DNA of 64,000 nucleotides from an uncultured Mycoplasmataceae bacterium (lineage in GTDB: Bacteria; Bacillota_I; Bacilli_A; Mycoplasmatales; Mycoplasmoidaceae), in the NCBI GenBank assembly GCA_949290735.1, contig CASESV010000001.1, forward strand, positions 1-64,000, written 5' to 3'. Both the position numbers and the translations under genes were made by a program. Under the pieces are notes generated by a model that worked only from the letters and a program-made list of their open reading frames with translations, made no database searches and was not told the DNA's origin. Shown one piece after another: positions 7,827 to 13,751 of this stretch (within the stretch, counting starts at the first letter, position 1; the number at the start of each line of letters is the position of its first letter).

Positions 7827-8557
7827 TGAATTATTCTATTGCAATGGTTATTATATGTTTAATTTTTCCGATAATTGGTTACTTATCAGGTAGCTTATTA
7901 TGATCAGTTATTATTGGAAAAGTATTTTATGGTAAAGATATTAGAGACTTTGAATCAAAAAATGCAGGTGCTACAAATTCTTCTAGAGTATTAGGTAAAA
8001 AAGCAGGCATAGTTATACTAATTTTAGATATCCTAAAATCCTATATACCTACAATGTCGATATGATTAATTGTGAGATATACTTCAATTTCATTGTTTTT
8101 AAATAATAATGCTTATTTTAATGAATATGCATATGTTTATATAACAGGATTATTTGCCTTAATTGGTCACTGTTGACCAGTCTTTTTTAAATTTAAAGGT
8201 GGGAAGGGATCTAGCTGTTATGGTGGATTATTATTAGCAATAAGTCCTTTTGTTGGTTTATTACAATTATTTATATTTATTGCTTTAATTATTATTTTTA
8301 AATATGTTAGTTTATCAAGTTTAATTAGTTCAATAACTGCATTATTCTTAATTTTTATTCCAGGTTTAAATTGATTATATATGACTAATGAACATATATC
8401 TAATATTAATTTAGTTAATGGATGAAATAATTATGGAACACTATTATTTATTCTTACTATTTTATGTTGCTGTTCAATAGTTTTAATTTTTAAGCATAAA
8501 GCAAATGTATATCGATTACAAACTCATACTGAAAGAAAAACAATTTTATTTAAATAA
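7826..8557 (+). CDS. plsY: Acyl-phosphate:glycerol-3-phosphate acyltransferase
   Basis: Integral membrane enzyme for the first acylation of glycerol 3-phosphate in phospholipid synthesis. It is 243 residues with several membrane spans. Conserved motifs seen: GSLLWSVIIGK followed by [18 protein letters not shown] (phosphate-binding), and [15 protein letters not shown] in the central loop. Six or more TGA codons encode Trp. Start ATG overlaps the upp stop, so it is translationally coupled. Its 3' end overlaps the convergent gene at 8550. Confidence 0.93.
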
Positions 8558-9947
8558 TCATTTTCTTATATTTTCTATCATGCTTACATGCAATTGATAT
8601 AAATGTTGCAAATGTTGAATATAAAGCAACTTTATTTATTAAATTATTAAATAAAAGTAAAATAGTCGTATTAAAACCACTTCTTATATACGGTGTAGAT
8701 GACCATAGCATAACTTTAAAAGGAACAATATCTAGATATTTAAATGCATATGCAAACATAAAAATGTAACCAAAAAAATACAAGAAAGCAAAATAAAATA
8801 TATGATCTTTAACAGGGAAGTTTGGATTCAATAATGGTCCTGAACTAAACCCTAAATACGAAGTGATAATTAATGGGAAAATAGTTGTCATAAATATGTT
8901 ATATACATCTTGTTCTTTGTTAAAATCTTTAAACCCTCTAAATGTTTTAGAGTCACTTAAATTATTTATTGATGAATCAGATATTGGATTGCTAAAAATA
9001 TATTTTGCAGATTTCTTTAAAAGCGATAAATATATTTTAAATTGGATGGTTCGAGTAGACATTGTATAAATAAAATTTAATAACAATACTACAATCGCAA
9101 AAATTAATACTAGTAACAAGACAACTGCAATTCTCAAAAATGTAGCAACAGTTTGTACCATTAATGATACAGCAATTCCTGAAAAAGCTCATGATGGTGT
9201 AATCATGGTAAAAATTTCAGTAGTTTTTGAAATTTTATTAATTTTTTTAGCAATTTTTTCTATTTTTTTAGGAGCATAATAATTCATTAATTTTACAAAA
9301 ATTATTTCAATAACAATCAAGCATATAAGTGAAATAAAAAAATATATACTAAATTCAGTGCTTCTAATTTTAAAAAGATTAGATAATGTATAATCACAAA
9401 TATAGTAAATTGTTGGTACACTATCTTTATCTAAGATACCACTGCTATAACTAAAATTCGAACTAAAAGCAAAAAATGAATCCTTAAAAAAATATTGTAA
9501 ACAAGAAATCAATAATGCAATTGCTCCAAACCCAAAATATATCATACTAACTTTAGCAATCTTTTTTATAGGGTTTCTATATTTTGTAAACATATAAAAA
9601 TTTGAAAATAATCTAAATGGTAATGTAATTAAAAACCCTAAAAACATTATAGTGAATGAAAGTCTAACTAAACTAGAACTTAAATAAATAAGATTTCTTA
9701 TTCAATAAAAGTCATTATTATCATAATCAAAAATTTTAAAATTATTAATTCAAGCAATAATGAATCCAAATACAAAACCAAGAATAAACATTATAAATGT
9801 CATTCTATTTCTTGTATATCATTTTTTAGTAAAAGGAATTTTTTTAGCAAAAATAGAAATAATAAAACCAATAAATATAATGGTTAATGCCACAGTACCA
9901 GATATTATCACTCTATAATCGTTATTAAAAATACCAATATAATTCAT
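8550..9947 (-). CDS. Polytopic membrane protein, unknown function
   Basis: A 465-residue protein with about nine hydrophobic segments separated by basic loops (for example a Lys-rich loop near residues 225-245). I cannot assign a transporter family: the sodium:dicarboxylate symporter signatures I looked for are missing. Start ATG 9947 has no clear ribosome binding site. It is transcribed away from the GG-leader peptide locus that begins at 10065, so a shared control region and a role in export or immunity are possible, but that is inference. Confidence 0.7.
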
Positions 9948-10064
9948 ACGATAATTATAATTAATTTTAATTAATTAACTTAAAATGATTTTATTTTTTA
10001 AATTAAAAGGAAATTTTTTTAAAAAAATGGTTAGTAATTATATGTAAAAAGTGAAAGGAGGAAT

Positions 10065-10316
10065 ATGAAAAAAATAATTAATAATAAAGAAATTATTGCT
10101 GGTGGTAGCAAATTTCTTGGACTAGGCAATATTGGTTTTTTTACTATAACAACTATTGGATCAATGTTGGGATCTTTTATTAATAATGTATCAAATTTAG
10201 CAGTAAATGATATTTTAAAATCAAAAGGAATAGATGTTAATTTATCATCATATAATTGAGATAATGGATTTATAAGAATGAGCGCTGATGCATATAAATC
10301 ATCTGTAGTTTTTTAA
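10065..10316 (+). CDS. GG-leader small peptide A (candidate exported peptide)
   Basis: An 83-residue protein starting MKKIINNKEIIAGG, so a short charged leader ends in a double glycine at residues 13-14. A Gly-rich hydrophobic segment follows (about residues 18-40, with GLGNIGFF and GSMLGS), then a polar tail. A very strong AAAGGAGG ribosome binding site precedes the ATG. The stop overlaps the start of peptide B (TAATG). The layout resembles precursors of two-peptide bacteriocins or other double-glycine peptides, but no sequence family is recognised and no cognate peptidase-transporter is in the window. Confidence 0.75.
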
Positions 10317-10540
10317 TGAAAAAAATAATTGAAACTTCAAAAGATGAAATTTTTGCAGGCGGGATTAGTTTTGGACTAATTTTAGCCATATCTGGTGCAA
10401 TATTTAGTATTGTGAATCTTATTGTCGGATCAGTTAGTGCTGCTAAAAAAATTGACTATGCAAATAGTATTGAACCTGAACCTGAACCAACATTTATTAA
10501 TTCAAACTTTTTACAAAATTCTTCAGTTAGCTTATATTAG
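10316..10540 (+). CDS. GG-leader small peptide B (candidate partner of A)
   Basis: A 74-residue protein starting MKKIIETSKDEIFAGG. Its leader aligns with that of peptide A: MKKII, EI, A and GG are shared. A hydrophobic Gly/Ala/Ile segment (about 17-43) follows, then KK and a polar tail with EPEPEP. It is translationally coupled to A by a one-base overlap, as expected for a stoichiometric pair. Function is inferred only from architecture; a pair of small membrane proteins is the main alternative. Confidence 0.75.
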   Translation: MKKIIETSKDEIFAGGISFGLILAISGAIFSIVNLIVGSVSAAKKIDYANSIEPEPEPTFINSNFLQNSSVSLY

Positions 10541-10583: not shown

Positions 10584-13500
10584 ATGAAAAAGAGTAAATT
10601 GTTTTATGCTACTGGATTAGTTTTTGCTTGTGCATTAATATTTCCTTTCTTTTTTATTAAATCTCAGAGCTTGTTTGTTCAAAAAAATAATGCATCATCA
10701 AAATTAAAAGCAAGAGCTATTCAAACTAGTTTTAATCAAACATACGTTAAGAATAATGTATTTGATATTTCATCAAATATAAATATTGAATTTAATGATA
10801 TTTATCTATGAAATAAAAGTGATGATGAAAAAACAAAAGTATTAACATCATTATTTGTTAATCAATGATCAAATTATTTATTTTCTAATTTAAGTAGCAT
10901 TTTTAGTAATCAATCATTGATTCTTAAAGATATCACATTTAATTCAATTGATGGACAAATTATTATACAAAATGTCATTCTGACAGATTATATAGAAAAT
11001 AATCAAGATGCTAAAGGTGAATTAAATTTAGGACAATTAACTATTAATGGTTTATTAAGAGAACAAACTGAATTTAATTTATCATCAGATCCGAGTAACT
11101 ATTATGGAACCATATCAATGGATAATGATACTGTGATTTGAGATGCTACAAATTGATTTAGAAAACAAGGAATTGAAATATTAAATATTAAGCCTAGTGA
11201 ATTTAGAAAAAATGATGTTGATAATAATATACATTTAAATTCACCTATCAATTCTAATGATATTGTTAATGCTCTTTTAAGAAATGTTCCTGACAAAAAT
11301 CAAAAAATTAATACCAAAGATTGATGAGAAATCCAAAATCGTATTGATTATGATGATGAAGGGTACATTTCTTTTTTTATTAAATTTAAAAATATTAACA
11401 ATAAGGATGGAAAATATACAACTAATTGATCTAATCTTAATAATGTTAAAATAAAAGGTTTTAAAAAAAGTGTAAGTTGATCCCCTTGATTTAAAGACAT
11501 AAACGGCTCGTATGTCATTCCATTAGATGAGAATGCTTCGATACAAAAAATTTCATTCAATTCTCCATATTTTAAAAATGAACTATTAACATATTTAAAC
11601 GAAAATAGATATTTTATTTTATCTAATAATGAAGCTAATTATTCTATTTTAGATTTTGATTATAAGATTGAAAACTTTGAAGTTAAATTATCAAATATTA
11701 AATTAAGTAATAATGATTATTTACCAAATGCTAAAATTACAAATTTCATTTTTACCTCATTAAATATTGTTCCAAAATCTAATATTGCAAATATGCAAAA
11801 TAATTTTGCCAGTGTTATAGCTGATGAACTTAAAAATTCAACTGATTTAAAATCATCACTATCTAATTTTTTTGAAAATATAAATAATGTTAATGATGAT
11901 TTGTATGATATTAAAATTGATAAAGATGCAACAATTGGCGATAATGAATTGGGAAGTTTACAAATTACTTTTAAAATTTATTACAAAGATAATAGTGATT
12001 TATTTTTAAGTATTTCAAATGTCTTTACTGGATTTTTAAATGGGAATACTAAAATTATTAATAATGGTACTTTAATTGATAGTAGACTTAATGATATTAT
12101 AGCTTTAGATCTGTACAATAATTTGAGATTATCTTCTGAAAACATTAGTTATTTTTTAAAAGAATATGGTTGTATTAGTAACATATTAAATGACACGAAT
12201 ATTAATGTAAACACTAGTGATGTTTCTATAAATTTTAATAATAATACCATTACAATAGAAAATATTATAGTTGATAAATATGTTGAGAATAATAAAGTTG
12301 TTTTAGAACAAAAAAACTTAGGTAGTTTAGTTATTGTTGGCTTTAAAGAATCACAAACTAAAAAAACCATTATTCAATATTCAAATAATTATGCAAACAG
12401 CCCATTGTTTTCGGAAATTTTTACAGTTCAGGATTTAATTAAATATTTAAATAATGAGACATATATAAGGCTTTTAGTTAATATTATTAATGAACCACCT
12501 AATTCTAAACTTACTGCTAATGTTGTAGGAACTCCAGATAATGACAAAGGTACAATTACATTATCGTTTACCTTAAATCAATATTATGATGAATATGGTA
12601 TACTTCATGTTTCACAATCATCAAAATTTGAATTTCAATATCAATTCCTATCGAAAACGACTTCTACTAGTGTTAATAATTTAATATCATTACCCAATTC
12701 AAACAAATATGCATATGAATACACAAGTAATGAATTATCGCAAATTGATGGAATAGTTAATAATGCTCCTCATGGAACATCTCTAATTGTTGATATTCTT
12801 AGTTTAGATAATCGAACTGGATTAATATATACAACAGTTAAAATAGATAAAAGATATGCAGCTGATGGATCAATTGAAAATGCTAATGATGATGAATGAT
12901 TTGAATTTTTAAATGTTGTTTTTTCAGGTGCTAAACAATTATCAAGTTCAACAATATTGAAATCACCTATCACACCTATTGATCTAACTGCAAATGAATT
13001 TATAAAGTTATTATCTAATGAACTAACTACAAGTTCAATATTAGAACAATATATAGAAATTCAAAATGGTTTGGATAATACTGAAATAATTTATGTTAAA
13101 GATAGTGCAACATTAGTTGATGATGAAATAGGAATTGTTCAAGCACAATTCAAATTAAAAAATTTTATAGATAATGATATTAATTTTTCATATAAAAATA
13201 GTGTTTCAGAAAGAATATTTGATCTTCAATTCTCAACAAAAATATATCCTGAAACAAGTGTGAAATCATATTATGTCAAATACGGAATTGATCCTATTAA
13301 TTTAGAAAATGATAGCACACTTGCTAAATTAGATGCTAATTATATTATAGAAAATTGATCTACAAGTTCTATGCAATCTATATTAAAAAATTTTATTAGA
13401 TTAAATATTCAAACTATTTTAAATAGTTATCCAGTTGATGTTGATGTTACTAATGAAATGATAAATATAACTGGATGTTATGCCGCAGATGATATGAACT

Positions 13501-13751
13501 CAATTAATTTATCTTTTAGTGTTGAAAATTGTAATAATGGTGATGGAACTATAGGGAAAAAAGACTTTACAATTAAATTAATCAATTTAAATAATTCTAA
13601 TAATCAAAAACCTAATTATGATTTATCAGATAATAAAACAAATTTTGGTGAGAATAGTTGATTGATATACACCATTATTGGAATTTTAGTTGCTATATCA
13701 TTAGTTATTTTAATATCGTTAATTATGATTAGAAAGAGAAGAAAAATATAA
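10584..13751 (+). CDS. Large surface-anchored protein with internal repeats
   Basis: A 1055-residue protein with an N-terminal hydrophobic helix (about 7-26, no lipobox Cys) and a C-terminal membrane helix (about residues 1027-1048) followed by the basic tail RKRRKI, so most of it should lie outside the cell. The ectodomain is rich in Asn, Ser and Ile and contains divergent repeats. One unit with IIIQNVILTDYIENN and LNLGQLTINGLL (about 112-158) recurs as ITIENIIVDKYVENN and LGSLVIVGF (about 540-590). Shorter units such as DKGTITLSFTL and DDEIGIVQAQFKL recall the mycoplasma lipoprotein-associated domain (Pfam Lipoprotein_17). Probably an adhesin or variable surface antigen; function not known. 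Confidence 0.8.

Follow-up and report, generated by a model that had tools for sequence, protein, structure and literature searches.

Overlapping double-glycine peptide genes in a mycoplasma genome point to a likely cargo of the mycoplasma C39-peptidase exporter

Introduction

In the 64,000-nucleotide stretch of DNA analysed here (the window), which comes from an uncultured Mycoplasmataceae bacterium, two small overlapping genes, A and B, encode precursors that both begin with a double-glycine (GG) leader. A preliminary description of the window read them as a co-produced pair of the two-peptide bacteriocin kind. The locus raises the question of what the two peptides are, and of which exporter would cut and release them.

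In JCVI-syn3A, no double-glycine peptide was identified for the C39 exporter 0401, and lipoyl-lysine import was proposed for this protein instead (Breuer et al. 2019, PMC6609329). The passage of that paper (PMC6609329) that cites Dirix et al. 2004 describes other mycoplasmas as likewise being without candidate GG peptides. C39 domains are nevertheless kept in 282 of the 320 genomes of the order, which are among the smallest known, yet published work gives them no substrate; the open-licence literature that we searched names none for the mycoplasma C39 exporters, which is not proof of absence.

Organization of the gene pair

Gene A (positions 10065–10316, forward strand) encodes a precursor of 83 residues, which the sequence and a held-out hidden Markov model (HMM) identify as an MPN313-like double-glycine peptide, and gene B (10316–10540, forward strand) encodes a precursor of 74 residues; the start codon of B overlaps the stop codon of A in the sequence TAATG, and all these values agree with the preliminary description. 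Gene A is preceded by a strong Shine-Dalgarno sequence, AAAGGAGG (10054–10061, forward strand), and gene B has none, so it is likely that B is translationally coupled to A through the TAATG overlap. The surroundings of the pair show no conspicuous promoter or terminator signal.

The leader of A, MKKIINNKEIIAGG, comprises 14 residues (10065–10106, forward strand), with the cut after GG predicted from the leader consensus of the family, and that of B, MKKIIETSKDEIFAGG, comprises 16 (10316–10363, forward strand). The two leaders match and are canonical: both end in GG, one of the ends (GG, GA or AG) typical of double-glycine leaders, and both have the hydrophobic residues at −4 and −12 by which such leaders are recognised. 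The predicted mature part of A (69 residues, 10107–10313, forward strand) consists, according to hydrophobicity and AlphaFold, of a hydrophobic helix, a linker and the C-terminal motif NGFIRMSADAYKSSVVF (10263–10313, forward strand), the last being, by comparison with relatives, the cognate of their [YF][ILV]R[MLVI]SPxPxRS, and it contains a GxxxG sequence (GSMLG). The predicted mature part of B (58 residues, 10364–10537, forward strand) has a strongly hydrophobic N-terminal helix by the same two measures (KD19 2.4) and is net acidic. The segment after GG had been described as Gly-rich and hydrophobic; it is hydrophobic in both peptides and only moderately rich in glycine. For the single window sequences, AlphaFold predicted one extended helix, with a confidence between low and moderate (for A alone, residues 7–53, low confidence).

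The source genome was searched both by pattern and by profile. The leader pattern ATGAARAAAATAATT...GG has exactly two sites in the 1.06-Mb genome, namely A and B, the reversed control pattern has none in the same genome, and the order-wide peptide profile gives only two matches there. Additional GG-leader genes, for which the preliminary description proposed to search, were not found in either way, nor was a second pair of this kind.

The multi-span membrane protein encoded divergently at 8550–9947, to which the preliminary description drew attention, is not matched convincingly by any Pfam or NCBIfam model, and it is placed outside the system because it does not adjoin A and B in relatives. 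On the other side of the pair, 44 bp past B, begins the gene for a large surface-type protein of 1055 residues with a C-terminal transmembrane (TM) helix (10584–13751), which does not neighbour A at any of the relatives' loci that we read.

The A family and the partner peptide B

With a profile and a threshold of E ≤ 0.01, the A family was found in 87 of the 95 genomes of the GTDB family, in single copy, and most of the A genes in relatives follow a purine-rich Shine-Dalgarno sequence. For 12 species pairs, omega lies between 0.06 and 0.23, which indicates strong purifying selection and hence that the A genes are real and constrained. The carriers include a genome that we take to be M. genitalium (G079) and others that are presumably M. 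penetrans, M. haemofelis, M. haemocanis, M. suis, M. wenyonii and M. parvum.

An HMM built with one genus left out at a time recovers the window A with E = 2.7e-8 (best decoy 5.5e-3), and the mature part alone is recovered by a held-out model with E = 2.5e-6 (best of 1500 decoys 2.9e-2); the mature parts of one subgroup within g10 (G076–G078, G080) were not recovered by the model from which g10 was held out. A search with the single sequence of the window A gave one clear true relative, G071, of the same genus, which has the same overlapping pair at a different locus, together with many weak or chance matches. Two matches to the TAATG pattern were rejected, one in G021, lying inside a HAD-like ORF, and one in G084, which is glyA-like.

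The family model NF045747 (MPN313 family protein) matches 47 of 69 A peptides at E ≤ 0.05 (best 2.2e-41), and the peptide of the presumed M. genitalium genome (G079:C1:266084-266356) passes its cut-off, with 138.9 against 100 bits. The window A gives no match to this model at E ≤ 1 (curated cut-off, 100 bits) and is therefore regarded as a distant MPN313 relative and not as a formal member, while the held-out HMMs of the whole precursor and of the mature part show it to be homologous to the MPN313 family, including the C-terminal half. No Pfam family covers peptides of the A or B type. We propose that A is a core, vertically inherited, MPN313-like peptide of the mollicutes.

The leader consensus of the family is L at −12, S or T at −11, K at −7, I or L at −4, and G at −2 and −1. 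G-1 is present in 75/75 leaders, G-2 in 63/75 (Ala in 11) and K-7 in 68/75. The leaders of class II bacteriocins have the same register; they usually carry Leu at −7, whereas the A family carries Lys there. In the mature part, a hydrophobic helix starts at about residue 5 and is followed by a polar linker and the C-terminal motif, whose variants are NNGYIRMSPFPARTAVMMNL in genus g8, the window form given above, TYVRASPNGYNSKINFGIPFA in g6 and MYARIAQHPSKATMSFGSPFF in g11.

A GG-leader gene of the B type lies at the end of A or within a few bases of it in genera g1, g3, g4, g6 and g11, and the TAATG overlap of the two genes recurs in G071, G011, G020, G021, G089 and G091. Beside A, B is absent in g5, g7, g8 and g10, all of which keep A, and thus the two are not an obligate pair; A stands without B in most genomes, and the A–B pair is a recurrent arrangement. 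We propose that B, which serves as a partner in some genera, arose by duplication or was recruited.

The C39 exporter and its association with the peptides

The preliminary description correctly stated that the window holds no C39 transporter; a genome-wide search found one elsewhere, and the lack of such a transporter, which that description had named as refuting its reading, therefore does not apply. This single C39-peptidase ABC exporter of the source genome, of 642 residues, is encoded on contig C5 (G000:C5:1670-3598, equal to L002:1670-3598), unlinked to A and B. It has the C39, ABC membrane and ABC ATPase domains of the PCAT layout. Among the NCBIfam models, NF045998 (Mbov_0121 family peptidase domain-containing ABC transporter) matches it best over the whole length, but the score of 276.6 bits does not reach the 500 bits required for the family, and the Asp of the C39 triad is replaced by Cys. 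The catalytic Cys is present in 35/35 exporters compared, and the exporter of the source genome keeps both Cys and His; Cys as the third residue of the triad (IFCS instead of YDS) is shared with G072 and G085.

C39 was found in 82 of the 95 genomes of the GTDB family. In 32/32 exporter loci read in this family, the exporter gene is directly followed by that for a protein of 112–127 residues with one N-terminal TM helix, whose gene in the source genome (L002:3591-3950 on G000:C5, 119 residues) shares a few bases with the 3' end of the exporter gene. The one-TM protein may be an accessory factor of the exporter in reduced form.

In G092 and G089, the exporter, the one-TM protein, A and B adjoin in that order on one strand. 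The C39 proteins at these two loci (L192:810-2699 and L194:463-2340) have intact catalytic residues and no recognisable ABC ATPase domain.

The peptide and the exporter also co-occur across genomes. In family f8, 49 genomes have both, 7 neither, 3 the peptide only (G248, G259 and G263, with no C39 gene detected) and 1 C39 only, with p = 2.4e-6 when genomes are treated as independent though they are related; these genomes are nearly complete, and confounding by incompleteness is much less than in the family of the source genome. In the latter, where the p values likewise treat related genomes as independent, 80 genomes have both, 6 neither, 7 the peptide only and 2 C39 only (p = 4.8e-5, partly confounded by incomplete genomes, five of which have a peptide match and no detected C39). 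Among the high-quality genomes of this family, the corresponding numbers are 43, 2, 0 and 1 (p = 0.003).

In genus g2, C39 is absent in 3/3 genomes. Two A genes were found in this genus; both encode the mature region only and have a Shine-Dalgarno sequence of their own (L235:2224-2433 and L236:3025-3243), and their mature parts match the A family with E of about 1e-9. An in-frame stop lies 8 codons upstream in G003 and 20 codons upstream in G002, and the 20 codons of G002 include Gly-Gly and no ATG. In our reading, the leader disappeared together with the exporter, and the leaderless form indicates that the mature part can persist without a C39 exporter.

Related peptides in the order

The GG-leader peptide profile has matches in 212 of the 320 genomes of the order at E ≤ 0.05, including peptides with other C-termini in families f7 and f8. 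Many of the f7- and f8-type peptides are encoded just 5' of rplU, a position also taken by an A-family gene in g8, and this common location suggests that the A family and the order-wide GG-leader peptides are of common descent. In the genus g46, assigned by inference as mycoides-like, the peptides are likewise found 5' of rplU and not beside exporters; a mycoides-like relative matches TIGR03949, the NCBIfam class IIb model, just above its cut-off. A tandem pair of GG-leader genes in the Spiroplasma-like f8 genus g41 (L234:3032-3544) is possibly an independent two-peptide arrangement.

Discussion

Very probably, the precursors encoded by A and B leave the cell through its single C39-peptidase ABC exporter. 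The leaders of 14 and 16 residues would bind to the C39 domain of the contig C5 protein, the Cys/His site of which would cut after Gly-Gly, and the ATP-driven membrane domain would deliver mature A (69 residues) and mature B (58 residues) to the outer face, perhaps with the help of the one-TM protein whose gene comes next after that of the exporter. This reading is favoured by the PCAT layout of the exporter, the class II register of the leaders, the wide distribution and constraint of A, the adjacency of the genes in G092 and G089, the co-loss of peptide and C39, the leaderless form in g2 and the leadered relatives in two further families. Weighing against it are the separate locations of exporter and pair in the source genome, the altered C39 triad, the C39 proteins of G089 and G092 with no recognisable ATPase domain, the genomes of f8 and of the family of the source genome that have a peptide match and no detected C39, and the persistence of the mature part in g2. 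The N-terminal hydrophobic helix would probably lie in or on the membrane, with the polar linker and the C-terminal motif of A exposed.

The step from leaders to exporter is well supported, that to a bacteriocin pair is not, and the pair is better accounted for as one member of an order-wide exported peptide system. The A family is likely the long-missing cargo of the peptide-cutting exporter of mycoplasmas. The conservation speaks for a core function of the mature peptides at the surface or in signalling, and we consider a constitutive peptide of this kind likelier than one that kills. On balance, we lean towards the broader view that the mollicutes share one ancient GG-leader peptide, released by a dedicated C39 exporter with a one-TM accessory and retained even by the presumed M. 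genitalium with its minimal genome. In this view, the peptide is not a weapon but a core molecule of the surface or of signalling in wall-less bacteria, and it is the cargo, so far overlooked, of an orphan exporter.

A narrower signalling role, in which exported A (and B) would be a pheromone sensed by conspecific cells, appears rather doubtful. ComA-type C39 exporters do export pheromones, and a small core peptide with predicted C39 export and a conserved C-terminal end would suit such a role; however, A is conserved across genera instead of being species-specific, in its mature form it exceeds known GG pheromones in both length and hydrophobicity, and no receptor gene recurs beside A in the loci read.

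The picture is less favourable for the bacteriocin pairing itself. A two-peptide system as described earlier stands as regards the GG leaders, the overlapping genes, the exporter in the genome and the TAATG pairs in other genera, and a class IIb-like bacteriocin, with C39-exported A and B jointly permeabilising competitors, would also be in keeping with the hydrophobic mature parts and the GxxxG sequence of A. The class II register of the leaders and the weak matches of 5 of 69 A peptides to TIGR03949 point the same way. A near-universal, single-copy and slowly evolving gene under purifying selection, missing its partner in four genera and beside which no immunity candidate recurs in the loci read, is hard to reconcile with such a weapon, as are the length of both mature peptides, the acidity of B and the conserved C-terminal motif, and we consider this explanation improbable.

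It is very unlikely that A and B are ordinary small membrane proteins with an incidental GG and nothing cut: the leaderless version in g2 and the strong hydrophobic helix would fit, but G-1 is invariant and in the class II register, and the leader is missing in just the genus that lacks C39, in line with the co-loss statistics. Least credible of all is that the mycoplasma C39 ABC protein does not export GG peptides and is, for example, a lipoyl-lysine importer, as put forward for JCVI-syn3A 0401, in which its authors found no GG peptide (PMC6609329), since GG peptides occur in nearly all relatives, including the mycoides-like g46 (G301–G304), where two of them have GTG start codons.

Once a substrate family is named, export of the A family by the C39 protein can be put to a direct test in laboratory mollicutes and in minimal cells, and a conserved 'unknown' gene gains a function hypothesis.

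Comparison with known systems

The name of NF045747 carries no function, and it conveys neither the leader nor the link to the exporter, the B partner and the order-wide reach described here. With the lactobin A/cerein 7B family (TIGR03949), the A–B pair has in common the leader register, the tandem genes and the hydrophobic mature parts; unlike these class IIb systems, it is built on a core gene, with no immunity partner, long mature peptides, a C-terminal motif and a dispensable B. The closest solved structures to the exporter of the source genome are PCAT1 (PDB 4RY2) and ComA, with which it shares the C39-ABC architecture at a distant level of similarity, and in place of a known adaptor, the mollicute exporters are accompanied by a one-TM accessory-type gene.
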